From a virus: a DNA stretch of 64,000 bases. Of the stretch, positions 1,367 to 62,875 are shown in pieces. The translations under genes and the position numbers were made by a program. Location: IMG/VR virus record IMGVR_UViG_3300034102_001739, positions 1 through 64,000 of that record; one strand, 5' to 3'. How positions within the stretch are numbered: the first letter of the stretch is position 1; each line of letters opens with the position of its first letter. The notes beneath the pieces are model-generated. The model made no database searches, had not been told where the DNA came from, and worked only from the letters and a program-made list of their open reading frames with translations.

Positions 1367-1743
1367 AAGAAAGTGTTTAAAGGTAATACTTCTCGGTTTC
1401 TTTTATTTAGATTGGTTTGTGTCTGTACTAATTTATTACCAATGACTGTAGCCAAATGTAGTCTCTTAGCTTCTAACAATCCTACCGCTTTTATGTACGC
1501 CTCCTCCACGGTCTCGTAACAATAATCTAGGATACTATTACCTGTGGAACTCTCGCTTACCATAAAATAGTCCGGATATGTTATGTCTTGATGAATAATA
1601 AATCTTCTTTTGTAAGCGTCAAAATATCCTACTATGAATACATCCTCCGTTTTTAGGTTGGTTAACATGACTGTGCCCATTCCCTCTGCGTAAACTAGCT
1701 CTGAGAAGTCGCTAATAATCGGTTTTTCGTTCAGGTTCTTCAT
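1357..1743 (-). CDS. Hypothetical protein, replication operon
   Basis: This 128-residue protein is not recognised. It has a predicted beta-rich middle (GTVMLTNLKTEDVFIVGYF) and a helical, basic C-terminus. It overlaps the end of the DnaB-type helicase gene by 32 nt and the next gene by 10 nt, so it is probably translated by coupling with the helicase. There are no membrane segments or cysteine clusters. Confidence 0.6.
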   Translation of the reverse strand: MKNLNEKPIISDFSELVYAEGMGTVMLTNLKTEDVFIVGYFDAYKRRFIIHQDITYPDYFMVSESSTGNSILDYCYETVEEAYIKAVGLLEAKRLHLATVIGNKLVQTQTNLNKRNREVLPLNTFLWI

Positions 1744-4012
1744 GCTCTGTTGGTAATGTTATTGAATGACAAACATTTTCTAAATCATTTTGGAACATAA
1801 GGACAGTTCCAGCTTTTACACGTCTTCCCTTAGCTACTTCCATCCCAACTAAATCGTGGAATTTCATATCCGGGTCTTGGAACATTCTCATTGCTATGTC
1901 CGAATCTTGTACATAGGAATTTGAGTACGCAAAATCATCTTGACTATCTGCTGCCGTTTTAGAACCTCCTTTACCTGCCCCTCTTTTTAACTGGGTGGTA
2001 TTTATGATAGGAACTTTAAACGCCTTTGCTACCCGTTTTAAATTTCTAGTCACGTACACAATCTTTTCCCATCCCTCTGCCATTTTTGGTTCCATCAAAT
2101 AAGAACCGTCTATAAAAACTACTGACGGCTTGTACATACCTATGTGGGTAGTGAGGTCTTCTATTGTTTGACAGCTTTCAAGTATTCTAATTTTGGACCT
2201 GTTTTCCTTTAAGGAATCTAGCCCTTTATAATAGCGTAACTTTTCTCGCTCGGTTAATTTTCCAGACAAAAATCTCTCGTATGGTAGTTTGAAAGTTAAA
2301 CAGTCTATACGTTCTTTGATTTCCTCCTCTCCCATTTCGTTTGAAATAAAGAGTATCTCTCCGAAAGTATCTCCCATTAACTCCCTCTCCTTTAGTACTT
2401 TATCCAAAAGAAACGCCAAATAAACTAGGTACCACGTGTTATGGGTAACTGTAAAATCCGCGAGACAGAATAAGTGGTCTCCGTCTATAGTGAACCCATA
2501 GTAAGTATCTACGACATCCTTTTCTACGGTAACACCTGTATGGTTAGCGTTTTTTATTTGTTTTCTCTCTGAAGCTTTCTTTCTAGGTATCCTAGTAGGT
2601 ATTTCGTCCGTGTTGCCATATATATTAGCCTTATAATACAGTACTCCATTTACCAGTTTAATACTAGTAGAAACGGCTAACCCTAGAGTACGACATAGTA
2701 ACACTAAATTCTCGTGTAACTCTTTCAATTTGAAAGTAACCTCGAAAGAGTTCTGCCCCAAGTATCCATCAGAGTCTATTAACCCTGCTAAAAGCTGAAG
2801 TCTATTCTCTCTGGAGGTTTTTATGTACTCCATAGGGATATGTTTTCTACCTGTATGTTTTTTATACCTACCCTTTATAAGTTTTAGAGAATCCATAATT
2901 TCACGTAGTCTCCCACAACCTTTCATCCTATAGATTATAGGTGAACTAGGGCAATTTTCAAAACTACCTCCAAAGCTCTCCGCATATTTAGCGCAGTAAT
3001 CCAATATCTCAGAATCTATGTTAGTGATACATAATTCTCTTGAGTGCCCATCGCCTAACCATATACCTAGGAAATAGGGGTCTATCTCTAAGGTACTATC
3101 CGGAAACTCCATCCCAAAAGATTTGTACCCCTTTGCTGCCTTTTTAAAACTTTTTGGCCTCGTTAGGTACTCTCTTACAGAGAGGTTTTCCGTACTCCAA
3201 GTAGTCTCACAACTTTGGTACACCCTCTTACCATTTATAGTAGCCCTATGCGCCTTTGTCTTAGGGACTCTTAATGATAGAATATGGCTTTCGTTGACTC
3301 TATAATCCTCCCCCCTTACTTGTCTCACCCAGTACATTTGTTCTGTACCCGTAGCCACGTTAAGGACGTTTCTTACGTTACCATCTGGACCCATTAGTCT
3401 ATCCCCTACCACTACATCCTCTACGTTTTTAGTGGTTAAGTCGTACATGAGTACTTTAGTTCCTTTACCTAGACATTTGCCCTGCCCTGCACGACCTCCT
3501 ATTGTTATTAGGTCTTGTTTACGATAGCCGTAGAAAGTAGAGTCCATTACTTCTGAACCCATACTTAGATATGTAACCCCACGGGATTTCATTCTATCCT
3601 CGTACTCCGATTTTCTTAGATCTATATCATCCGAATAAAGTACATCTTTACTCTCTACGGAATCTACCATTAACTCCGAAACTACTTCCTGCAGTTCTGA
3701 TAGTTTACCTCTTGGGTCTTTTTCTATCCCACGTACTAACTTTGGGATTTTATCCGACAATGTGGCGAATATAAATCGCTCTTTTACTTTGTTTAAGTAA
3801 TACGTAGGTCTAGCATCGACACTCTCTGGTAATTTGAATTTTTCGCAAAAAGTTTTTACTCCTACAAGTTCACCATAGTCCTTATAGTAATCATGTACGA
3901 AATTATGCTGTAATAACTCTTCTCCATCGAGCCATTTTCTCTGTATCTTGGAGAAATTCTTTCCATCCTTTTTAGACAGACACGCTACGAATAATTGTTC
4001 TGCTACTGTCAT
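1712..4012 (-). CDS. Replicative DNA helicase, DnaB/RecA-fold type, interrupted by an intein
   Basis: The 766-residue precursor comprises a helicase of about 420 residues (1-179 and 526-766) and an intein at residues 180-525. The helicase would unwind DNA at the phage fork. The N-terminal extein ends in GGRAGQGK and the C-terminal extein begins with T, so splicing rebuilds the Walker A motif GRAGQGKT. Later motifs include EILFISNEMG, the Walker B-like region VVFIDGSYLM, and TTQLKRGAG typical of the RecA fold of DnaB-family helicases. At 420 residues it resembles phage DnaB proteins with a reduced N-terminal domain. It overlaps the helicase loader gene by one base, and the two probably work as a pair. 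Confidence 0.93.
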   Translation of the reverse strand: MTVAEQLFVACLSKKDGKNFSKIQRKWLDGEELLQHNFVHDYYKDYGELVGVKTFCEKFKLPESVDARPTYYLNKVKERFIFATLSDKIPKLVRGIEKDPRGKLSELQEVVSELMVDSVESKDVLYSDDIDLRKSEYEDRMKSRGVTYLSMGSEVMDSTFYGYRKQDLITIGGRAGQGKCLGKGTKVLMYDLTTKNVEDVVVGDRLMGPDGNVRNVLNVATGTEQMYWVRQVRGEDYRVNESHILSLRVPKTKAHRATINGKRVYQSCETTWSTENLSVREYLTRPKSFKKAAKGYKSFGMEFPDSTLEIDPYFLGIWLGDGHSRELCITNIDSEILDYCAKYAESFGGSFENCPSSPIIYRMKGCGRLREIMDSLKLIKGRYKKHTGRKHIPMEYIKTSRENRLQLLAGLIDSDGYLGQNSFEVTFKLKELHENLVLLCRTLGLAVSTSIKLVNGVLYYKANIYGNTDEIPTRIPRKKASERKQIKNANHTGVTVEKDVVDTYYGFTIDGDHLFCLADFTVTHNTWYLVYLAFLLDKVLKERELMGDTFGEILFISNEMGEEEIKERIDCLTFKLPYERFLSGKLTEREKLRYYKGLDSLKENRSKIRILESCQTIEDLTTHIGMYKPSVVFIDGSYLMEPKMAEGWEKIVYVTRNLKRVAKAFKVPIINTTQLKRGAGKGGSKTAADSQDDFAYSNSYVQDSDIAMRMFQDPDMKFHDLVGMEVAKGRRVKAGTVLMFQNDLENVCHSITLPTEHEEPERKTDY
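2438..3475 (-). mobile_element. In-frame intein with LAGLIDADG homing endonuclease inside the helicase gene
   Basis: The intein covers residues 180-525 (346 aa). It starts with Cys180 directly after the Walker A lysine and ends with His524-Asn525 followed by Thr526, the usual splice-junction residues. The C-terminal block DTYYGFTIDGDHLFCLADF is the classic intein F/G block, and NESHIL matches block B. Two LAGLIDADG helices are visible: YFLGIWLGDG near 313 and LLAGLIDSDG near 407. All splicing and endonuclease motifs look intact, so both splicing and homing may be active. Insertion in the P-loop means the unspliced helicase cannot bind ATP normally. Confidence 0.95.
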
Positions 4013-4629
4013 TAGGTAAATCTTAATTTATTTTCACTAAGGATTTTTCTCCTATAATCGTCTCCCTTTACAAGTACTGGAATTACCCCCTCTCTAAGTA
4101 GTGAAGCTACGTCTTCAGAGAATACATCTTTTACGAATTTTGGGTCCGTGTTTGAAGCGAACCAAATGGGTTTACACATCTGCACTCTATACCTAATTAC
4201 GGATTCCATAACTCTCTTTACTAAGTCTGGTAGGTATTTTGGTTTCCCATTTTCGTCCACATTTTTACCGAACTCGTCTATGCCCAAAAAGTCTATAGTT
4301 CGGAGGATTCTATCTAGTTCTACTTTTTCCTCCTCTGAATACCATGAAGATGTAAACTTATCCACTATTTCGTCCATAGTGTACACTCTTACCCGGTATT
4401 TTTCTGAGATTAATTGGATGAAAGCCGTATTCATTAAGTGGGATTTTCCTGTACCGTTTGCTCCCCATAGATACAAACCTACTCCTCTATCTAAAGCCTC
4501 CTTAGATTTACCTAGATACTCGTTTACAGATTTTAATGCCTGTTTATCATTTCGATACTCTGCTAGAGTTTTCTTGTGCCACGATTTTTTTATGCCACAA
4601 GAAATGTAGTAATCCTCTGTTTTGCCCAT
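4012..4629 (-). CDS. DnaC/IstB-like helicase loader ATPase
   Basis: This 205-residue AAA+ protein probably loads the DnaB-type helicase encoded directly downstream. Walker A is GANGTGKS near residues 55-62 and Walker B is FLGIDEFG near residue 113. FASNTD further on resembles the sensor-1 strand of DnaC/IstB ATPases. The stop codon overlaps the helicase start by one base. The length is close to phage DnaC-like loaders, which are usually 200-250 residues. An IstB transposition helper is unlikely because no transposase is nearby. Confidence 0.88.
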   Translation of the reverse strand: MGKTEDYYISCGIKKSWHKKTLAEYRNDKQALKSVNEYLGKSKEALDRGVGLYLWGANGTGKSHLMNTAFIQLISEKYRVRVYTMDEIVDKFTSSWYSEEEKVELDRILRTIDFLGIDEFGKNVDENGKPKYLPDLVKRVMESVIRYRVQMCKPIWFASNTDPKFVKDVFSEDVASLLREGVIPVLVKGDDYRRKILSENKLRFT

Positions 4630-4631
4630 AA

Positions 4632-5399
4632 TTAAAAATCCTCCGACTCTGTTAGTTCTTCCCTCATGTACTCTTTACTTCCATCGGGTCTTGTTAGTTT
4701 AGCCAAAACTTCATCCTTTACGAATGCTACATTTACTAACGTAGGAAGCCCATTTCTGTAATCATGGTAGTTTAAGACAGCCTCCACCATAATAGAAAAT
4801 AACGTAGTTCTATCAAAAGCCTTTAACATATTGTTAGTTTGGTAATACTCTACTTTATTTCTAATGATATACTGCTCCCCTCCTGTGTATAACTCGTACA
4901 GTATTCCGTGTAACTCCGTAAATTTTTGTGGTTGCCAATTTTCTACTCCGTCATCCAATAAATCTTGAAACTCTTTGTGTAGATATTTAGCTCTTGATTT
5001 GGCCAATGTGGATTTGTGTTTACCATACTCCTTTATTTGAGTCATTACTTTTTCCACCGCTTTATCCACTAAAGGGCTTTCTAGCTCGAACGGAAAAAAC
5101 TTTCTGCCTCTTAGTTCACCTACATAAACGGTATCCGAGTCCTCGAAACCGAAGAGGATTAACCCCTCCGATTCCAATTCTTCTAAAGCCTCGTCAAATA
5201 GATTATTTTTTGGACTACTACTAAAATCTCCCCACAAGTCTTTTAGGTGGGATACATCTTTACTATACTTTACATACCTAGAACCGTCTTCCATTTCCTC
5301 TGCCACGGTATCTGACAACAATGTACAATACAATAAATACTTTAGCTGTACTAACCCCAATATGGGCATTTCCTTTCTTAACCTATTTAAGATATTCAT
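4632..5399 (-). CDS. Putative replication initiation or accessory protein
   Basis: This 255-residue protein is not recognised by motif. It is mostly helical, with a winged-helix-like N-terminal stretch (about residues 1-110, containing FDEALEELESEGLILFGF). It sits two bases upstream of the helicase loader, the position often held by phage replisome organisers (O or DnaD-like proteins). The role is inferred from position only. Confidence 0.5.
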   Translation of the reverse strand: MNILNRLRKEMPILGLVQLKYLLYCTLLSDTVAEEMEDGSRYVKYSKDVSHLKDLWGDFSSSPKNNLFDEALEELESEGLILFGFEDSDTVYVGELRGRKFFPFELESPLVDKAVEKVMTQIKEYGKHKSTLAKSRAKYLHKEFQDLLDDGVENWQPQKFTELHGILYELYTGGEQYIIRNKVEYYQTNNMLKAFDRTTLFSIMVEAVLNYHDYRNGLPTLVNVAFVKDEVLAKLTRPDGSKEYMREELTESEDF

Positions 5400-5401
5400 A
5401 A

Positions 5402-5662
5402 TTACTCTGTGATTTCTTTAACTTGAATTTCCAACTCTCCGGTAACTAAATCATCGGCTATCTCTAAAGCCGTTTGTACAGCTCCTTTGTATAAATGTGG
5501 ATTTTCCAATGGTAGAGAAACACCAACGGTTATTTTCGCACTCTCGTAATTCCCCAAATTTTTAGTTAGGGATTTCTCGTAGTAAATATAACCTTTCTCT
5601 GCTAAATCCTTTGGAGCTAATTCCTCTGGACTATCCGACTTCTTCGTCTTTACTGGTGGCAT
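5402..5662 (-). CDS. Small conserved phage protein
   Basis: This 86-residue protein begins MPPVKTKKS, almost the same start as the gene at 5954-6379. Its core reads KNLGNYESAKITVGVSLPLE, a pattern I recall from small phage proteins in replication regions, but I cannot assign a function. The start overlaps the upstream HTH gene by 32 nt. Confidence 0.55.
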   Translation of the reverse strand: MPPVKTKKSDSPEELAPKDLAEKGYIYYEKSLTKNLGNYESAKITVGVSLPLENPHLYKGAVQTALEIADDLVTGELEIQVKEITE

Positions 5663-5951
5663 GATCTACTTCTTTTTTAAATAGTTTATTAATCTCTACA
5701 ATCAAGTTGTCTGAGGGTCTCCTTGCTCCATCGAATTTATTTACTATGGGAACTAACCCCTTAGCCAACCTTATTGGGTAATATCTTACCCCATTGGATA
5801 CTAGTGGTGCTGAGGGAAAGATACCTTTCTTTTCGTAACTTAATATAGAGTCCTTTGATTTACCTACTATTAAGGCAAGACCTGCTATTGTTACAGCCTC
5901 TATTAGTTTACCATTTACGGTAAGTCTAAAGATATGTTTTGCCCTCCTCAT
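5631..5951 (-). CDS. MerR/excisionase-like helix-turn-helix protein
   Basis: This 106-residue protein is a probable DNA-binding protein. Residues 20-70 read as a MerR-type winged helix: LALIVGKSKDSILSYEKKG gives the helix-turn-helix, and FPSAPLVSNGVRYYPI resembles the wing. The C-terminus is acidic. It lies two bases downstream of the 5954 gene and overlaps the next gene, so it belongs to the replication operon. It could be a regulator of that operon or a replication accessory protein. Confidence 0.65.
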   Translation of the reverse strand: MRRAKHIFRLTVNGKLIEAVTIAGLALIVGKSKDSILSYEKKGIFPSAPLVSNGVRYYPIRLAKGLVPIVNKFDGARRPSDNLIVEINKLFKKEVDHATSKDEEVG

Positions 5952-31215: not shown

Positions 31216-32865
31216 TTAATATGAGTTTCTTTTAGACATACTTACCGCTGATTGTATTCCCTCGTATAACGGATTTTCCAATACTTCTATTTCGTACCCG
31301 GTTTCTTGTTCTTGATTAGCTGCTAAACAACAAAGGGCTAAACTATCCACGTAGTCATCAAAATGTCCCTCCATCTTATGACAAACTAAATAAGGTCCAT
31401 TGAAATACTTTAAACAGTTTTTCATTTGTTCCTCGAACTTAGTAAATTCTGTTGTACCCCTAACTCTACTACTGGCCGGAATTTTTATCCGCTTACAAGT
31501 AATGTCTGATGTTAGATTATACCACATATCCGACTTACTTTGTGCTGTAAAAGTATAGGGTTCTATGTTTACGTATTCTCCACAAGCATAGATTAACCTA
31601 TCTACAACCGCTTTTCCAACACCTGTATAATCCGCAAAAATGGTGGAAACATTGTATTGGGCTATTGCGTCTAGTATCGCATGATGTTGAGTCTCGTAGT
31701 CCAACTCCCCCAAATCTATCCACGTTAGTATCTCCTTAAAAGGTTTATCGAATACGTCCTCTCCTTTGTAAACTCTCGCTATGGTTAAGATAGTACTCGC
31801 AGGACTTTTCGCAATATCCAATCCGGCAACGACATAATCCGAATCTTTCGCCATTTGAAATCCTTTTGAACGATTAAGCAGATTGTTGAACTCTGTATCT
31901 GTAATGAGCATACCACTCTCCAAGTCCCAAGTGAGGGCGTACGCCAATTTAAACGCCTGTGAGTCTTCTCCCCATCTTTCTCTTTTCCTAAGGACATCCG
32001 ATTCGTAGTTTAGGTGAAACCTATTGCCATCCCTGTTGTAGGCTTCCCTACGAGCTCTTATGATATGTTTGTACTCGTATTCAAAATGATTACGTATTCT
32101 TTCATCCGAATTTTTTCTATCTATTGACCTGTTACGTTGAATTTCATCCCAAAAGTGATTTTTTACAGTACCCGTAGTACCTACTTTAAGCATAGTTCCA
32201 GCCGTAGCTGATAACATAGGTTCTATGGATTTGGTTACGATAAAATCGTCCACATCCTGTGCCTCTTCCACTATTACTAAGTCGTATGTCTTAGATTCTA
32301 TTTTAGACTGCTTACTCGCTACCTGTCCTGCCAAATATGACCCATTGGTGAGCGATAATTTCGCTGAACTAGTTAGGTACGATTCTATGTCTGGGTCTGA
32401 CATTATTATCTCCGCATTTGCCGAATTTAACCTAGTCATAGCCCTCGAATATGTGGTACTAACTTGGTCTGACTGGGGAGCGAATAACCCAATTCTGAAA
32501 CCGCTCTCGAACTGTTTTAATTCCGGAATAACTTTTGATAACGCCGGTAGTATTACAGTTAGAGTATCTATGATAAAAGCCATGGTCTCTGATTTACCTG
32601 ACTGCCTAGATAATAGTACTGTTTTTATATCCCCTCTAAAAGTAATTACCGAATGAATAACCGCATAAGCTATATCCACTTGGTACTGATATAAAGATAA
32701 TCCGGTTAACGCCTTACCGAACTCTACGATTTTTTCACACACAAAATGCTCGTCAAAAGTTACCGACTTACCTACTAGTTCATCGGTACTTATGTCTGAC
32801 ATACTTTCTCCAGTAGCCTTAAAGACTACCCCCTCTTCTAAGGGTTTACTTTTTTTCTTTGCCAT
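31216..32865 (-). CDS. Terminase large subunit
   Basis: This 549-residue packaging motor has Walker A SRQSGKSE near residues 86-93 and Walker B YDLVIVEEAQD near 200. The C-terminal nuclease has acidic sites in VAGLDIAKSP (near 348), FADYTG (near 413) and DDYVDSLALCC (near 520). All motifs look intact. The gene start overlaps the end of queD by 20 nt. No small terminase is recognisable; the genes just upstream (33397-35693) include candidates by position. Confidence 0.93.
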   Translation of the reverse strand: MAKKKSKPLEEGVVFKATGESMSDISTDELVGKSVTFDEHFVCEKIVEFGKALTGLSLYQYQVDIAYAVIHSVITFRGDIKTVLLSRQSGKSETMAFIIDTLTVILPALSKVIPELKQFESGFRIGLFAPQSDQVSTTYSRAMTRLNSANAEIIMSDPDIESYLTSSAKLSLTNGSYLAGQVASKQSKIESKTYDLVIVEEAQDVDDFIVTKSIEPMLSATAGTMLKVGTTGTVKNHFWDEIQRNRSIDRKNSDERIRNHFEYEYKHIIRARREAYNRDGNRFHLNYESDVLRKRERWGEDSQAFKLAYALTWDLESGMLITDTEFNNLLNRSKGFQMAKDSDYVVAGLDIAKSPASTILTIARVYKGEDVFDKPFKEILTWIDLGELDYETQHHAILDAIAQYNVSTIFADYTGVGKAVVDRLIYACGEYVNIEPYTFTAQSKSDMWYNLTSDITCKRIKIPASSRVRGTTEFTKFEEQMKNCLKYFNGPYLVCHKMEGHFDDYVDSLALCCLAANQEQETGYEIEVLENPLYEGIQSAVSMSKRNSY

Positions 32866-33391
32866 CTAGCCTACAATCGTAATTCATTTCACCTTTATAC
32901 TTTCTCCATAGGTCAAGACTTCTAGCGAAATCTTCCGTAGCCTCATATCTGGCTTCCTTACAGTCTACCCAACAATTTGGGGTCTCGAATAACCTTATGT
33001 TTACTAATTTTATTCCGTCTAAGTCCTTACGGAAAAAACGGTTAAAGATATAGAATAACTCTGAAGCTATATTTTCAGCAGAGGGATTATAGTCTCCTTT
33101 ATTGTCGAGACCCATAACCCAAAGTTTCCACTTATTTTCCTCTGTAAGATTAATTAAATCTTTGTCCAGAGGATTAAGCATTACTCCATGGTCTAGGAAC
33201 TCGTCTATAAACTCAAAAGCTACCCTCTTTATTTCTTTAAAGTCTATAGCGTATCCGATTGCTGCTAATTCATCATACTCAAAAGTAGTTTCCACCTCGA
33301 ATCTATGCCCGTGTAGATTGAAACACTTTACTTTCTCATTCATTACTCTGTGAGCTGTGTCGAAAGGATGTCTTCTTGTAATTGTACCCAT
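32846..33391 (-). CDS. queD: 6-carboxy-tetrahydropterin synthase (QueD)
   Basis: This 181-residue enzyme converts dihydroneopterin triphosphate to 6-carboxy-tetrahydropterin, the second step to preQ0. The zinc ligands are His14 (DTAHR) and His27/His29 (LHGHR), the catalytic Cys23 lies just before them, and FLDHGVMLNP and PSAENIA match the PTPS/QueD fold. It lies between a KTSC-domain gene and the terminase, far from queC and queE, but shares the pathway with folE. The 20-nt overlap with terminase suggests coupled expression with packaging. Confidence 0.9.
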   Translation of the reverse strand: MGTITRRHPFDTAHRVMNEKVKCFNLHGHRFEVETTFEYDELAAIGYAIDFKEIKRVAFEFIDEFLDHGVMLNPLDKDLINLTEENKWKLWVMGLDNKGDYNPSAENIASELFYIFNRFFRKDLDGIKLVNIRLFETPNCWVDCKEARYEATEDFARSLDLWRKYKGEMNYDCRLDGKEKK

Positions 33392-44103: not shown

Positions 44104-44130
44104 AATCTTACGGTTTTTAAATTATTTCTT

Positions 44131-44232
44131 TCACGCTGGCATATCATCGAAATGAGTAGTTAAGTCTATTTTCTTTGCTGCTGTTGATTCGCAAGGAGCT
44201 GAATCTAACTCGTCATAACTTATTGTTTTCAT
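44131..44232 (-). CDS. Tiny first gene behind the origin-side promoter, 33 aa
   Basis: ATG at 44232 and TGA at 44131-44133 give 33 residues starting MKTISYDELDSAPCES and ending in DDMPA. It is the first reading frame behind the promoter, about 45 nt from the expected RNA start, and is acidic. A regulatory peptide or a leader are both possible. Confidence 0.45.
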   Translation of the reverse strand: MKTISYDELDSAPCESTAAKKIDLTTHFDDMPA

Positions 44233-44278
44233 AATCTTGTGGTTTTAGTTGTTTTTATTGTTGTTATTTAAACATACA

Positions 44279-44308
44279 CAAAGATAAGTATTGTAATTAC
44301 AATAACAA
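44279..44308 (-). promoter_or_regulatory. Promoter with a perfect 16-bp operator palindrome in its spacer
   Basis: The minus strand has TTG, 19 bp, then TATCTTTG, a perfect -7 box. The spacer holds TATTGTAATTACAATA at 44289-44304, a perfect palindrome that would place a repressor over the polymerase contact. The related TTGTTATAACAA at 44539-44550 and TTGTTATCACAA at 45446-45457 may be further sites. This promoter would drive the small-gene run to the left. Confidence 0.85.
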
Positions 44309-45035
44309 TACATATTCAGTTAAAATTTCACTGTAAATATGTTAAAAATACTGTTTTTACACACAGTTACGGACTGTTTTACATACGGGGAACACCTCAT
44401 AGATACTTACTATAACCACCCACATACTGATAGACACCCGCTATACTACATAACTACAACTCCCACCCGTACTCCCCACCGATTTTTAGCCCCCACACAC
44501 TACCCACACGTACACAACTACACACACAATCTCGTGTATTGTTATAACAACAATTATGTCCGGTCTTTTAAATTCCATTTTTACTTATACGTACTACCCC
44601 AAGCAACACCCAATAAAAATCGCATTTAAGGGGCGGGGGTCTCTACTCTCTATACTACTTACTAATAACATCACACTCCACTCCTGCGCAAAATTATTTT
44701 CCTAGCTAGTTATTTCTAGTTACTCCTCCCGCTTATTTTTATTTTATTTTATTACTTTCTCCTAATTCTAATTTGTGCATTTTAATTTTCCCAATCTAAT
44801 TTCTAATTTAATTTTTGCGCCGTTTAGATTTCTAATTAGTTATTTCTAATTTTCTAAAATCTAATTAGCAATTTTCTAATCTAAAAAATCGCTGAGTAAT
44901 TTTCTAATTAGAATTTCTAGTTACAGTAAATAAGAATCTAATCAGAATAATCTAATTTCTAATTTGCGGGGAAAATAAAATTAGCTTATCAGTTATATAG
45001 TATGTAGGTAATAGGGAATACTACACAACTCTACC

Positions 45036-45108
45036 GCTAATTTAATTCTAACTAGCTAATTTAATTCTAGCTACGCTTATTTAATTCTAGTTACTGCTAA
45101 TTACTAAT
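45036..45108. repeat. Tandem repeat of about 20 bp (three units plus a partial)
   Basis: Units begin at 45036, 45055, 45075 and (partial) 45096. The best unit is GCTAATTTAATTCTAGCTAC, with units of 19, 20 and 21 bp and few changes. The spacing resembles iterons, which bind a replication initiator. It lies in the middle of the gene-free region. Confidence 0.75.
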
Positions 45109-45650
45109 TAAAATCAAATTATCATTTTGATAGTTCGATTTTCTACTTTTTTATATATCCTCGGGAAAAAACCGTGCCTTTTTCTAATTAGAACAAATTA
45201 GAATCTAATTTTCTGACACTTTGAAAGCAAAACGTTACGTGCGTGACAAAATGTCAAATCGTAAAGCCCAAATCCTTGAGATATTTTGCGCTAAACAAGG
45301 AAAATGCCCGTAAAATTAAAATCTAATCAATTATAATAGTAAATTCTTATCAGTAATAGTAGTAATATAACACGCAGTATAAGTAATTAATCTCTCTGCG
45401 TAGCGTAATTTAATTTCTAATTAGCCAATTCTAGTTAGCCAGTTGTTGTTATCACAATACTTGTAGCTTCATAACTAGCTGAATATCAATAAATTCTAAT
45501 TTTACTTCTCTCTGCGTGTGCTAGCTGTAGCTAATTTTTCTAATTCTGTCAACTCTGTCTAGCTTAGCTGAGTTAATAGTTTCACACACTTATTACTCCA
45601 TATACATACTACTCCTATTACATACATATACTTATACTATTATACAATAC

Positions 45651-45659
45651 TTATCCACA
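45651..45659 (+). promoter_or_regulatory. DnaA box
   Basis: TTATCCACA is a perfect match to the 9-base DnaA consensus. It sits in the gene-free region, 110 nt from the tip of the CTAATT-rich block. A single box could occur by chance, but the location supports host DnaA binding at an origin. Confidence 0.5.
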
Positions 45660-45847
45660 ATTACTGCCCGTTTTCTTGTTTCCGTTTTCTAGTTACTGAC
45701 TACTTACTCCTATAACCGCCTTTATACCTACCTACTACTTTGGTTTATCCTAGATACTACTACCTTATTCTACTTCTTACTATCCTTTATAATACTAGCT
45801 TTACATAGTATTTTTACCCCTCCGCCCGATTTTTTATTTTTGGGTAC

Positions 45848-45889
45848 GAAAAAAGGGACTTCCTAGAACCGAAATTCTAGGTTGCCCCC
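45848..45889 (-). terminator. Intrinsic terminator closing the 53-46 kb gene run
   Basis: On the minus strand CCTAGAA and TTCTAGG (7 bp, loop TTTCGG) lie inside an outer GGG/CCC pair with an internal loop, followed by six T. It is 64 nt after the stop of the small membrane gene at 45953. It isolates the origin-like region from incoming transcription. Confidence 0.85.
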
Positions 45890-45952
45890 ACTTATCAGTA
45901 CTTTTATTAGTACTTTATCATTTTCCTGACATCGGGAATATGATACTTCCCT

Positions 45953-46391: not shown

Positions 46392-46607
46392 TTACATCAT
46401 TTTACAAGTATTACATACGCAACTTTTTAAAACTAGATCATGTTCCTCCGGCATTTGTGCCAAAGCATTTCCCTCCGAAATTTTTGCTAGGAAGAACTGT
46501 AACATATTACTCTGAGATTCTGTTAACCCTATTTGTAGTATTCTACCATTGGGTTGTTGTTGGATTAGCCCTATTACTCCGGGCTTTAAATTTTCGTGGT
46601 AACTCAT
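46392..46607 (-). CDS. Hypothetical protein
   Basis: The start at 46607 (MSYHENLKPGVIGL) is chosen because a longer start at 46688 would run through the tRNA-like gene. The 71-residue product ends with CVCNTCKMM, a possible metal site. The start lies 22 nt after the end of the tRNA-like gene. Confidence 0.5.
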   Translation of the reverse strand: MSYHENLKPGVIGLIQQQPNGRILQIGLTESQSNMLQFFLAKISEGNALAQMPEEHDLVLKSCVCNTCKMM

Positions 46608-46628: not shown

Positions 46629-46734
46629 AAGTCGGTACAGGATTCGAACCTGTAAGTTTTCTGTAGAAGAAAACAGCTCGTAAGCCAAAAAGATTATTTG
46701 CGTCTTATTATTTTGCCAATTTCGCCAACCGACT
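46629..46734 (-). tRNA. tRNA-like gene with unusual core (identity uncertain)
   Basis: The ends are convincing: the 7-bp acceptor stem AGTCGGT/ACCGACT is perfect, and the T arm has ACAGG, loop TTCGAAT and CCTGT. At 106 nt it is longer than any normal tRNA. GTTTTC-TTCTACA-GAAAAC next to the T arm could be a long variable arm or the anticodon arm (CTA or TCT triplets in the loop). A TGGCGAAATTGGC D-arm-like start points to a leucine-type tRNA, but no clean anticodon arm follows. CCA is not encoded. It could be a decayed tRNA, a tRNA with inserted bases, or a tRNA-like element. Confidence 0.6.
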
Positions 46735-46747
46735 AACTAGTTAGGAA

Positions 46748-46970
46748 AAACCAATCTCAGTCCTTGCAGTGGAATAATAGATATTTTTATCCTTACTTCC
46801 TCATGACGATAAGTTCAATGCTTACAACAAATCGACCTCCATAATATTATTATAGCTATTACATCTAACAAAAATGACCTACTGCATTAGGTCGAGTAAC
46901 TACGCTTACTGGAGGTTATCCTGTGGAAACCATTACATAGCTACCTATTGCTTCAATCTGAGATTGGTTT
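46748..46970 (-). ncRNA. Predicted 223-nt structured RNA next to the tRNA-like gene
   Basis: A perfect 13-bp closing helix (ends AAACCAATCTCAG and CTGAGATTGGTTT) joins 46748-46760 with 46958-46970. Inside, ACCTCCA (46835-46841) pairs with TGGAGGT (46910-46916). Between them lie a 6-bp hairpin, GACCTA with loop CTGCAT and TAGGTC (46876-46893), and a 5-bp stem AGTAA/TTACT. There is no open frame of useful length. Terminator-like TTTTT follows the closing helix on the minus strand. Large structured phage RNAs are known beside tRNA genes, but I do not recognise this family. Confidence 0.65.
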
Positions 46971-51548: not shown

Positions 51549-52208
51549 CTACATTCTTATTAATTGTAGGAACTCGTTTCTCAAACTTCCCTCGAAAAAC
51601 TGTCCTCCTAGTTTTGAGGATACCGTGTCACTATTTACATCCTCTACACCTCTTAACTGTACGCAAGCATGCTTTGCTCTGACTAGAACCGCTACGTTAT
51701 CTGTACCCAATAAATGAGTCAATGCGTAGTAGATTTGTTCGACCATTCTCTCTTGTACTTGGGGTCTTCTAGCGAAAAATTCTACGACACGATTTAGTTT
51801 CGAGAGCCCAATTATTTTTTGGTCCGGAATGTACGCTACAAATGCCTCACCAAAGATTGGGACAAAATGGTGCTCACACATTGAAGCCACCTTAATGTTT
51901 CTCTCCAGTAACACATTGGAGTATCCCATCTTATTTTCTATGGTAGTTATCTTTGGGAAATTGTTGTAATCTAAGCCCCAAAATACTTCTTGTGTAAACA
52001 TTTTTGCCACTCTCCGTGGAGTTCCACTTAACGAATCATCAGTTAGTGGAAGACCTAACGCCATCATAATACCTCTGAAGTGGTTTTCAATCACTGGAGC
52101 ATTAGCCTCTAGGTTTACGGAAGTCTCTGTAACTTCTACTCCCTTTCCTACTAAGACATCTCTAATCTCTCTTCCTAAACTTCCGTCTAGTTTACTTTTA
52201 TCTAACAT
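51549..52208 (-). CDS. folE: GTP cyclohydrolase I (FolE)
   Basis: This 219-residue enzyme makes dihydroneopterin triphosphate from GTP, the entry to both folate and preQ0. Zinc ligands are in SMCEHHFVPIFG (Cys and His) and HACVQLRG (Cys). The phrase GLSKLNRVVEFFARRPQVQERM is the family signature. It uses GTP as the source of the phage deazaguanine. It is separated from the other preQ0 genes by 7-20 kb on either side. Confidence 0.93.
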   Translation of the reverse strand: MLDKSKLDGSLGREIRDVLVGKGVEVTETSVNLEANAPVIENHFRGIMMALGLPLTDDSLSGTPRRVAKMFTQEVFWGLDYNNFPKITTIENKMGYSNVLLERNIKVASMCEHHFVPIFGEAFVAYIPDQKIIGLSKLNRVVEFFARRPQVQERMVEQIYYALTHLLGTDNVAVLVRAKHACVQLRGVEDVNSDTVSSKLGGQFFEGSLRNEFLQLIRM

Positions 52209-59416: not shown

Positions 59417-60124
59417 CTACAAATTTTTTGGAATTGTCATTTCTTTGATGATGTCTTTAGCCTTATCCTGTAACATCATAAACTTATGAGTCTGCATATT
59501 TACATACCCGGTAAATTTTCTTTCTCTTAGAGTTTTTAGAAAATCTACTGTACTAATTTTAGAACCCCAATATAGTCCAAGGGCTATGTTTACTCTCTTA
59601 TTAGGAATACTCTCTATAAGAGTAAAGGCTTCCTCTAAGTCTTCCTCCGAATTTACCACGAATTTTATGAAGTCTTTGTCGTTTAGGATTCCTACGTTTT
59701 TGTTTAGGAAACTTCCTCCCTCTCCAGTACTTGCCAATTTGTAATCTACTACAAAACTGACATTTTCTAAATCCCTATACGGAGAAACGTCCATACTTCC
59801 ATTTGTTTCTACTACGACTTTAAATCCTAAATTGGATAATCTTTGTAGTAACTCCGTAGGTCTAAACATAAGAGGTTCTCCTCCAGTTAGACAAATTACA
59901 TCGTTACCATAGTCTTCCAATTTATCTATGATTTCGTTAAGGGTTAGACTGTCTCCTTGATGTTTTTCTAAAGACTCTGGAGTATCACATAAAGTACCCA
60001 TTGTGTCTAGGTAACATCTTAAATTACACCCGGCTAGCCTTACGAAAGTACAAGCTACTCCTATTCCGTATGTGTTTACCTCTCCCATGAAAGATGGGTA
60101 AATCGTATTTACTTTAAAATCCAT
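59417..60124 (-). CDS. queE: 7-carboxy-7-deazaguanine synthase (QueE), radical SAM
   Basis: This 235-residue enzyme turns 6-carboxy-tetrahydropterin into 7-carboxy-7-deazaguanine. Cys33, Cys37 and Cys46 would hold the 4Fe-4S cluster. The last gap is eight residues (CYLDTMGTLC) rather than the usual two, so the cluster loop is longer. GGEPLM (LTGGEP) binds SAM. The gene overlaps the unknown upstream gene by 11 nt and ends at a terminator. Confidence 0.88.
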   Translation of the reverse strand: MDFKVNTIYPSFMGEVNTYGIGVACTFVRLAGCNLRCYLDTMGTLCDTPESLEKHQGDSLTLNEIIDKLEDYGNDVICLTGGEPLMFRPTELLQRLSNLGFKVVVETNGSMDVSPYRDLENVSFVVDYKLASTGEGGSFLNKNVGILNDKDFIKFVVNSEEDLEEAFTLIESIPNKRVNIALGLYWGSKISTVDFLKTLRERKFTGYVNMQTHKFMMLQDKAKDIIKEMTIPKNL

Positions 60125-60575: not shown

Positions 60576-61271
60576 TTATTCTTTTTTAGGTTTCTTTCTA
60601 GGAGACGCTGAAGCTATAACAACTGCTTCCTCTATTTGTTTTTGGGGCTCTTCTTTAGGGGGTGTTGGGGCAAATAATTTTGCTAGAATACCTCCTCCAC
60701 TTCCTCCTGCTGGTGAAGAAGCATCTATTTTTAAAGAGAAATGTTCTCTCCCCGCATTTACTTTGGACATTACCAAATTACTAAGTCTATCTAGTTCCCC
60801 CGATAGATTAGCATCCGGTACTCCTCCGTCTATTTTCTCGTACACAGACGCTCTTTTTACCCTCTCGTATTGTACCTCTACTAAGAACGTATAAAAATCG
60901 TCAGGTGTTTCAGGTGTCTGCCCTCCCCATTCTATACCACAAACGAACCCTGATTTAAACGAGGGGCATTTGTCGTACATATAACACGAGTCACAATTTA
61001 CGCCTATTCCGACTACTTCCCTCATAGGAATTTTTGGACGTTCTTTGACTATGAGTTGTTCAAAAGTCTCGTCCCAAATATCCATTGGATTTCCTACTAT
61101 CCTAGATAGGTAATACTCCTTACATTCCTCTAGGTCACTGTCTGATTGTTTACAAGTAATACACTCAGGATATTCTCCTGTTATAAAAAACGGACAAAGG
61201 TGTTTCTTTAGAGTAGTACTCTCCTCCGCCATTTTTATAATCTGTATTCTCGACTTAACGCTTTCTTTCAT
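60576..61271 (-). CDS. Unknown Cys-rich protein in the deazaguanine run, 231 aa
   Basis: This 231-residue protein has two Cys groups in the first 120 residues, CPFFITGEYPECITC and NCDSCYMYDKCPSF followed by VCGIEWGG. They could hold iron-sulfur or zinc sites. The C-terminus is Pro/Lys-rich and disordered. It overlaps the DpdA gene by 17 nt. An electron carrier or a modifying enzyme acting on inserted preQ0 would fit the context, but no family match is known to me. Confidence 0.5.
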   Translation of the reverse strand: MKESVKSRIQIIKMAEESTTLKKHLCPFFITGEYPECITCKQSDSDLEECKEYYLSRIVGNPMDIWDETFEQLIVKERPKIPMREVVGIGVNCDSCYMYDKCPSFKSGFVCGIEWGGQTPETPDDFYTFLVEVQYERVKRASVYEKIDGGVPDANLSGELDRLSNLVMSKVNAGREHFSLKIDASSPAGGSGGGILAKLFAPTPPKEEPQKQIEEAVVIASASPRKKPKKE

Positions 61272-62190
61272 ATTTACCTGCCTCTTTATTTGTTAGTAAC
61301 AAATTAGCTATTTTTATGTACTCTTTTCTGAACCCTAACCATGCCAATAAGTTCATTCTATTAACATCGTCTCTGTGATCCTTTTTCGTTACTTTTGAGA
61401 AATCTACTCCAGCCTCCTCGTATTTTATTCTCTGCCCCTTACGCCGAAATTTTTGTTTGGTATCCCAACTCTTGAAATTTTTACCGTCGTAATTAAAAGT
61501 AGTTCCGTATCGTACTCCACTTAACCAAGACGTAGAATCCACGCTAAAAAATGGATACCTCCGTAATATTCTTATCTCTGTCCATGCGAATCCATGTACT
61601 CTTACCTTGTATTTTTTGGCCAGTAGAAAGAATCTGTGGGCGAATTTCTTTTGACTTTGATTTATACCTACGTATTTATACTTTTTACAGTACTCTTCAA
61701 AATGTTCGATACCGTGTGGGTCTATGCTCTCGTCCTCGTGTGCTACATAAACTACGTCAACTATTTTTTCTAGGGGCTCAAAGTATTTTTTATTCCACTT
61801 TCTTACTATCTCCCTACCCACGATTTTATCTAAGTCTAGGTTAGCGACTACGTAGATATACTCACTATGCGCTCTAACCCATGCGACATACTCCTCCAAG
61901 TAGGGAATCCAATACTCTTCTTTGCGCATTTCCTCCACGAATCCTGTCGCCATAAAGGAGAACGCTCCAGAGTCCGTCATAAACAAACCACCCTCCGATT
62001 TTAAAAACGGTAGTACTTCATCATAGTAGGTTAGACCTTTTCTAATGTAGAAGTAAGAAACTAATATCTCCCTAATACCAAACGCTACTAATTGTTTAGT
62101 ATCTCCTACTGACGACGCTGAAAAGAACATTACTCCTTTGTTTTTATTCTTATCGTAGTAACCCTCTTGCTCTTTTAACTTCTTCAACAT
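61255..62190 (-). CDS. dpdA: DpdA-like DNA-guanine transglycosylase
   Basis: This 311-residue protein has the TGT-type barrel signatures. MTDSGAFSF near residues 71-79 supplies the general acid-base Asp73, and ANLDLD near 117 gives an Asp119 at the nucleophile position. VHGFAWTEIRILRRYPF then SVDSTSWLSG (about 198-225) matches phage DpdA and archaeal-like TGT ends. It would swap guanine in DNA for preQ0 or a derivative. The Cys-x-Cys zinc site of bacterial TGT is not visible. The start overlaps queC by 41 nt; a later start at residue 21 (MFFSASS) is possible. Confidence 0.8.
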   Translation of the reverse strand: MLKKLKEQEGYYDKNKNKGVMFFSASSVGDTKQLVAFGIREILVSYFYIRKGLTYYDEVLPFLKSEGGLFMTDSGAFSFMATGFVEEMRKEEYWIPYLEEYVAWVRAHSEYIYVVANLDLDKIVGREIVRKWNKKYFEPLEKIVDVVYVAHEDESIDPHGIEHFEEYCKKYKYVGINQSQKKFAHRFFLLAKKYKVRVHGFAWTEIRILRRYPFFSVDSTSWLSGVRYGTTFNYDGKNFKSWDTKQKFRRKGQRIKYEEAGVDFSKVTKKDHRDDVNRMNLLAWLGFRKEYIKIANLLLTNKEAGKYERKR

Positions 62191-62875
62191 ACTTTACTGG
62201 TAATTTTCCACCGTATTTAATTCTCTCTAAAACCTCTTTTTGTAACGACTGGATACTTTTACTTGTTATCCGTTCCTCGAATAATTCGGGGTCAAATATG
62301 TTATTATTAACTAGTGCTACGGCTTTATTTAAACAAGGACGACATTTTCCGCATCCTTTGTGACTTTTTGAATCGTAGCAAGAACGTATCTGTTGTACCT
62401 TAGGGATAGGCATTCCTCTCTCAATTACTTCTTTTACCATTTCCGATTTTGTCAAGTCTCTGAAAGGTACTAGAAAGCTAAAGTTTTTACTCTCCCAACC
62501 CATGTCTGCCTCACAGTTACTATTTAGATGCCTAAACAACGTCATTGTCCGTTTAATAAACGTATCGTCCTTATCAGGAGCATCATCAGAGGCGTTTAGT
62601 CCTAAATATACGTGTTGCCCATACTGCATAGCTATAGTTAACAGTAGTAAATTTCTATAAGGTAGATATTTACTTTCTCTCTCATACTCACCTATTGGTA
62701 ACTCTTTTATGAGTAACCTGTCTTGGTAGTGTTTAGGTAAAGTCTTTAGGAAAGCTATCTCTACTTCTGAGTAAGATGTCTTCATATCTACGTATAGTAA
62801 AACGTCAGGACTTATTAGAAATTCTTGTAGTGTGGAGTCAAATCCTCCAGAAAATAATAATACTTTTTTCTCCAT
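62150..62875 (-). CDS. queC: 7-cyano-7-deazaguanine synthase (QueC)
   Basis: This 241-residue enzyme makes preQ0 from 7-carboxy-7-deazaguanine with ATP and ammonia. SGGFDS (residues 9-14) is the PP-loop. Cys166, Cys175, Cys178 and Cys181 form the C-terminal zinc site (HKGCGKCRPC). YLPYRNLLLL is also family-typical. It begins the run to queE. A palindromic terminator lies 18 nt upstream, so the run may rely on read-through or on a promoter I cannot identify. Confidence 0.92.
   Translation of the reverse strand: MEKKVLLFSGGFDSTLQEFLISPDVLLYVDMKTSYSEVEIAFLKTLPKHYQDRLLIKELPIGEYERESKYLPYRNLLLLTIAMQYGQHVYLGLNASDDAPDKDDTFIKRTMTLFRHLNSNCEADMGWESKNFSFLVPFRDLTKSEMVKEVIERGMPIPKVQQIRSCYDSKSHKGCGKCRPCLNKAVALVNNNIFDPELFEERITSKSIQSLQKEVLERIKYGGKLPVKYVEEVKRARGLLR

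Follow-up and report, generated by a model that had tools for sequence, protein, structure and literature searches.

The DNA analysed here, referred to below as the window, is 64,000 nucleotides long and represents nearly the whole of a 64,740-base IMG/VR record from a tailed phage. By terminase and capsid, this phage is related to, among others, Bacteroides phage BS162P1 and a phage contig from the human gut, and its host probably belongs to the Bacteroidota. Between two genes of the accessory region lies a 223-nt stretch whose coordinates are exact and which a first-pass annotation had marked as gene-free; indeed, no minus-strand open reading frame (ORF) of at least 40 amino acids crosses it. 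The 135-residue ORF upstream, the RNA described below and the tRNA-like gene that follows are all carried on the minus strand (Table 1). IMG/VR protein searches with the neighbouring ORFs returned no relatives, the next gene giving relatives of its N-terminal domain only, and the region around the RNA is not common to the terminase and capsid relatives. No minus-strand promoter is recognisable. From the direction of the genes and from the G-U pairs discussed below, we infer that the minus strand is the one transcribed.

The gene downstream of the RNA had been taken for a tRNA-like gene, and the resemblance holds for two of its parts, a 7-bp acceptor stem (AGUCGGU/ACCGACU) and a T arm (ACAGG-UUCGAAU-CCUGU), which flank an aberrant centre. 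It does not score as a proper tRNA, however: the Rfam tRNA model scores it at 20.8 bits, under the cut-off of 29, and ARAGORN makes no call unless a 12-nt 'intron' is allowed. The most fitting description of 46630-46734 is tRNA-like, or a tRNA in decay.

Elsewhere in the window, positions 44104-45952 form a 1.85-kb AT-rich noncoding stretch, rich in repeats of the TTCTAATTAG type, which may represent an origin of replication or a packaging region; three relatives (G004, at 62614-64308, G005 and G003) have, at the same place, weakly similar noncoding stretches of comparable length. By inspection, ORFs resembling QueD (32846-33391), GTP cyclohydrolase I (51549-52208), QueE (59417-60124), Tgt (61255-62190, with no Pfam match) and QueC (62150-62875) could be recognised, a set that probably constitutes a 7-deazaguanine pathway used for DNA modification. 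A DnaB-like helicase (1712-4012) is split by an intein, which includes a homing endonuclease domain (Pfam). In two of the relatives the terminase match falls into two pieces over about 2.7 kb, which suggests an insertion there.

Table 1. Elements of the RNA and its flanking genes in the window (W, numbering of the window RNA from its 5' end; L066, crAss-like phage contig)
Feature	Positions	Strand	Basis or remark
Upstream ORF, 135 aa	46982..47389	-	phrog_25117 (E 3e-6); no Pfam match; ends 11 nt before RNA
Structured RNA (W), 223 nt, 5' end 46970	46748..46970	-	Fold z -3.4; homologue; no Rfam match
P1 5' strand, AAACCAAUCUCAG, 13 bp, identical in L066	46958..46970	-	Alignment and inverted-repeat scan
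Junction after P1, AUUGAAGCAA identical in L066, then yA	46946..46957	-	Alignment
P2 5' strand, GGUAGCU (GAUAAUC in L066)	46939..46945 (W26-32; L066 26-32)	-	Pair changes and shuffles
P2 3' strand, AGUUACU (GAUUAUC in L066)	46895..46901 (W70-76; L066 91-97)	-	Pair changes and shuffles
P3 hairpin, GACCUA-AUGCAG-UAGGUC, 6 bp, loop AUGCAG, identical in L066	46876..46893	-	Alignment
Linker, GUUAGAUGUA, invariant	46860..46869	-	Alignment
Tentative P4 5' strand, GUAAUAG (GUAGUA in L066)	46856..46862	-	G-U exchanges keep pairs
Tentative P4 3' strand, CUAUUAU (UAUUAC in L066)	46774..46780	-	G-U exchanges keep pairs
P1 3' strand, CUGAGAUUGGUUU	46748..46760	-	Alignment and inverted-repeat scan
Degenerate tRNA-like gene, 13 nt downstream of RNA	46630..46734	-	Acceptor and T arm
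Downstream small ORF, 71 aa, orphan	46392..46607	-	ORF list; no relatives in IMG/VR

Structure of the RNA

The ends of the RNA are joined by P1, a perfect 13-bp inverted repeat (AAACCAATCTCAG/CTGAGATTGGTTT) with 197 nt between its arms. The first-pass annotation had named this closing helix and had considered so long and exact a repeat to be unusual, and both statements hold: the helix is present, and it is the sole perfect, non-palindromic inverted repeat of at least 13 bp with arms less than 400 nt apart in the 64 kb. The perfect 6-bp hairpin that it had also proposed, P3, was found as GACCTA-ATGCAG-TAGGTC at 46893-46876. Two further claims survive in part. The 7-bp inner helix exists as a complementarity (ACCTCCA/TGGAGGT, W55-61/W130-136), but it is lacking in the homologue described below and would cross P2 as a pseudoknot, P2 being a second helix that the annotation had not named. 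The T tract amounts to five T (46750-46746), three of which lie within the closing helix.

The minimum-free-energy fold of the minus strand has an energy of -63.5 kcal/mol, with a z-score of -3.4. Because the plus strand of the same region is no less extreme (z -4.4) and z-scores of -3.38 or lower are reached by 6 of 100 other 223-nt windows, the evidence of structure lies not in the energy but in the 13-bp helix and, above all, in the homologue, whose own fold has a z-score of only -1.4. The Rfam check that had been suggested at the outset found no family matching the 223-nt RNA at the gathering score when the window was searched, and a local search at E 5 returned only the sub-threshold tRNA and two chance matches. 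The possibility that the RNA is a tmRNA was discarded, as neither ARAGORN nor Rfam makes such a call.

A homologue in a second phage lineage

A search of IMG/VR for the closing helix, its arms separated by 175-205 nt, yielded 27 stretches. One of them, in contig L066 (genome G022), is matched by a model (R1) for which the window RNA was the sole source (69 bits, E 2.4e-19). This 59,083-base contig derives from a crAss-like phage, its portal protein being 50-56% identical to portals of the Suoliviridae, and the proteins that it has in common with the window phage are a few of the tail and lysis region together with a dNTP-hydrolase domain of nucleotide metabolism. Its RNA, 210 nt in length, occupies positions 4782-4991 of the plus strand, and no ORF of at least 60 amino acids lies on the RNA strand there. 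The two RNAs begin and end at the same points, with identity running six bases further upstream. P1, the junction AUUGAAGCAA, P3, the linker GUUAGAUGUA and a 3' block, CAAGGACUGAGAUUGGUUU, are the same in the two, and blocks of 28, 21, 13 and 20 nt are identical. The inner part of P2 and the sequence from the linker to the 3' block, in contrast, have drifted apart and show insertions and deletions. Blocks suited to scanning for further members are TAAATAAACCAATCTCAGATTGAAGCAA, CGACCTAATGCAGTAGGTCA and CAAGGACTGAGATTGGTTTT.

Since P1 and P3 are invariant, the two copies do not probe their pairing; the helix that does vary is P2. Of its seven pairs, three differ on both sides between the window and L066 (GC to AU, CG to UA and UA to CG), two differ on one side (GU to GC and GU to AU) and none is broken. 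Its G-U pairs are possible in the minus-strand reading only. In anchored-helix shuffles of the window copy, a helix of at least the 11 pairs observed arose in 0.015% of cases (p 0.00015); for the L066 copy, at least seven pairs arose in 1.8% (p 0.018) and seven Watson-Crick pairs in 0.2% (p 0.002). The comparison among homologues for which the first-pass annotation had called thus shows P2 kept through compensatory changes, on a basis of two sequences and one helix, too few for a formal test of covariation to have any power. Pairing of the tentative P4 does not exceed that of shuffles (p 0.12 in the window, 0.19 in L066). Two other candidates were abandoned: pseudoknot pairing between the P3 loop and the 3' strand (UGCAGU/ACUGCA), which one mismatch breaks in L066, and a likeness of GGAUAACCUCC to the 3' end of 16S rRNA, which is missing from the homologue.

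The equally low folding energy of 6% of windows would suit a leftover intergenic sequence in which the inverted repeat arose by chance and which encodes no functional RNA at all. A homologue in another lineage (E 2e-19), its block-wise identity and the compensatory changes in P2 make this scarcely credible; had neutral DNA been transferred only very recently, the interiors would not have diverged. The RNA is a real, previously undescribed phage RNA, as the first-pass annotation had proposed; with no Rfam match, and with a homologue that keeps the termini, the hairpin and the P2 pairing, it very probably defines a new family of structured RNA.

Genomic context and distribution

The same RNA is present in two distinct phage lineages, in each case beside a tRNA or tRNA-like gene: the L066 copy is preceded, at a distance of about 137 nt, by a proper tRNA-Glu. 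In both phages its orientation is that of the neighbouring genes and tRNAs. The genes that flank it differ, so a role in cis tied to a particular gene is unlikely. Such a role would be that of a structured 5' untranslated region, or of a processing or attenuation element, for the tRNA-like gene or the small ORF, with P3 and a U tract as terminator. The position of the RNA in the window, between the upstream gene and the tRNA-like gene and ORF on the same strand, would fit a leader of this kind, as would the terminator-like score of P3 with AUUUUUGUUA in the window copy. Downstream of the L066 copy, however, the context is wholly different, consisting of a noncoding stretch of about 780 nt with no similar ORF, and the U tract has shrunk to AGUUUGUU, whereas not a base of the loop has changed, a degree of conservation that a terminator would not require.

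One copy of the RNA is present per genome in both the window phage and L066. No similar DNA was found among the INPHARED phages, and no copy was found in plasmids, in the terminase and capsid relatives or, beyond L066, in IMG/VR. Fifteen public phage records (12 portal relatives, Cellulophaga phage phi14:2 and two terminase relatives) held none at the thresholds used, nor did 395, 396 and 390 (about 1,180) sampled Bacteroidota genomes, the filters being strict and the samples partly overlapping. When the closing helix was looked for in about 85,000 genome assemblies, only chance matches appeared. Two shorter patterns were rejected as guides to further members: the core pattern AATGCAGT..TTAGATGTA occurs in 77 further contigs, none of which matches the model and most of whose spacings are divisible by three, which marks coding coincidences, while the loop pattern ACAGGATAACCTCCA gave 45 matches and no homologue. 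The family is rare or fast-evolving among sequenced genomes and, missing as it is from all other relatives searched, the RNA is dispensable.

Termini that are identical over 13 bp in two unrelated phages with different neighbours could also be the terminal inverted repeats of a small mobile DNA element of the MITE type, and TAAAT on both sides of the L066 copy might be a 5-bp target duplication. Several observations render this rather improbable. Each genome has a single copy, the scan of IMG/VR and the genome assemblies for the terminal pattern led to L066 only, the right flank in the window is without TAAAT, and neither compensatory changes in P2 nor an invariant internal hairpin would be expected of such an element.

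Paired 5' and 3' ends that close a multi-hairpin RNA of similar size are likewise a property of retron noncoding RNAs, in which the ends pair as a1 and a2, and the aberrant insertion in the tRNA-like gene could hint at the remnant of a self-splicing intron by an interrupted tRNA. Both readings are very hard to sustain: no reverse transcriptase was detected in the window or in the L066 record by a search that was positive in control genomes, so that a retron would depend on one supplied in trans by the host, no Rfam intron family matches even at E 5, and the RNA lies outside the tRNA-like gene.

A model for the RNA

Our leading explanation, to which we give about an even chance of being correct, is that of a stable, tRNA-linked noncoding RNA of the phage that acts in trans. 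An invariant P1, junction, P3 and linker beside drifting arms are expected of an RNA core that contacts a conserved partner, and a leader specific to one gene is less likely than an RNA acting in trans because the genes downstream differ between the copies. In such a model, the RNA would be co-transcribed with the adjacent tRNA or tRNA-like gene and freed by RNA processing, after which the 13-bp P1, by clamping the 5' to the 3' end, would protect it from exonucleases. P2 and the variable insert that separates the linker from the 3' strand would serve as tolerant spacer arms, whereas P1 with its junction, the hairpin P3 and the linker GUUAGAUGUA would make up the recognition surface for a putative partner. 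The latter may be a protein, of host or phage origin, or else the ribosome, as has been suggested for other phage RNAs that neighbour tRNAs.

Relationship to other phage RNAs

Phage T4 encodes two small stable RNAs, C and D, within its tRNA cluster; set beside the window RNA by description, both are shorter.

GOLLD and ROOL, like the window RNA, are phage RNAs, and they are often found near tRNA islands (PMC12286853). GOLLD has an elaborate structure and ROOL has no known protein partner, and neither has a known function; in one strain ROOL equalled 16S rRNA in abundance, while the level of GOLLD goes up in the course of lysis, and binding of ribosomes to it has been reported from pull-downs (PMC12286853). 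In size and sequence, however, the window RNA stands apart. Many GOLLD members exceed 800 nt and have a conserved 3' region, and the ROOL solved by cryo-EM comprises 659 nt, whereas the window RNA measures 223 nt between flanking genes; its sequence differs from that of GOLLD and it matches neither the GOLLD covariance model (gathering score, E<=5) nor that of ROOL. Structured phage RNAs of this kind can be abundant, and a window RNA in a GOLLD- or ROOL-like role would be expected to be abundantly expressed and to form homo-oligomeric cages.

Directly downstream of the RNA homologue in L066 lies a second, larger noncoding RNA candidate of about 580 nt (4992-5570), which resembles positions 2905-3560 of phage phi14:2 (KC821624.1, locus L214; 76% over 105 nt, database E 3e-8), where only the tiny ORFs gp007-gp009 occur, on the other strand. 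It occupies the same type of locus as the 223-nt RNA but is much longer. Rfam gave no match to the candidate in either phage, and blastn revealed no similarity between it and the 223-nt RNA. After it in L066 (about 5668-5742) sits a tRNA-like sequence that, by eye, has an acceptor and a T arm and is without a normal D arm; ARAGORN makes no call there. In phi14:2, about 0.5 kb from the large candidate, a tmRNA could be recognised at 4031-4500 (ARAGORN, tag GSSVQKLAMVA; Rfam 46 bits, one under the cut-off) that is absent from the annotated features of the record.

Conclusions

The family, whose members measure about 220 nt and have an invariant core in common, is present in a crAss-like and a BS162P1-like phage and represents a smaller and more tractable system than GOLLD or ROOL. 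Its invariant pieces, P1, hairpin P3 and linker GUUAGAUGUA, are directly usable as bait for pull-downs and as probes for further members. We suggest, as a tentative possibility, that unrelated Bacteroidota phage lineages exchange a kit of tRNA-linked structured RNAs, comprising the present one of about 220 nt and the candidate of about 580 nt near tRNA and tmRNA genes, that act on the translation machinery of the host. If true, such a kit would be a functional counterpart of GOLLD and ROOL, unrelated to them in sequence.
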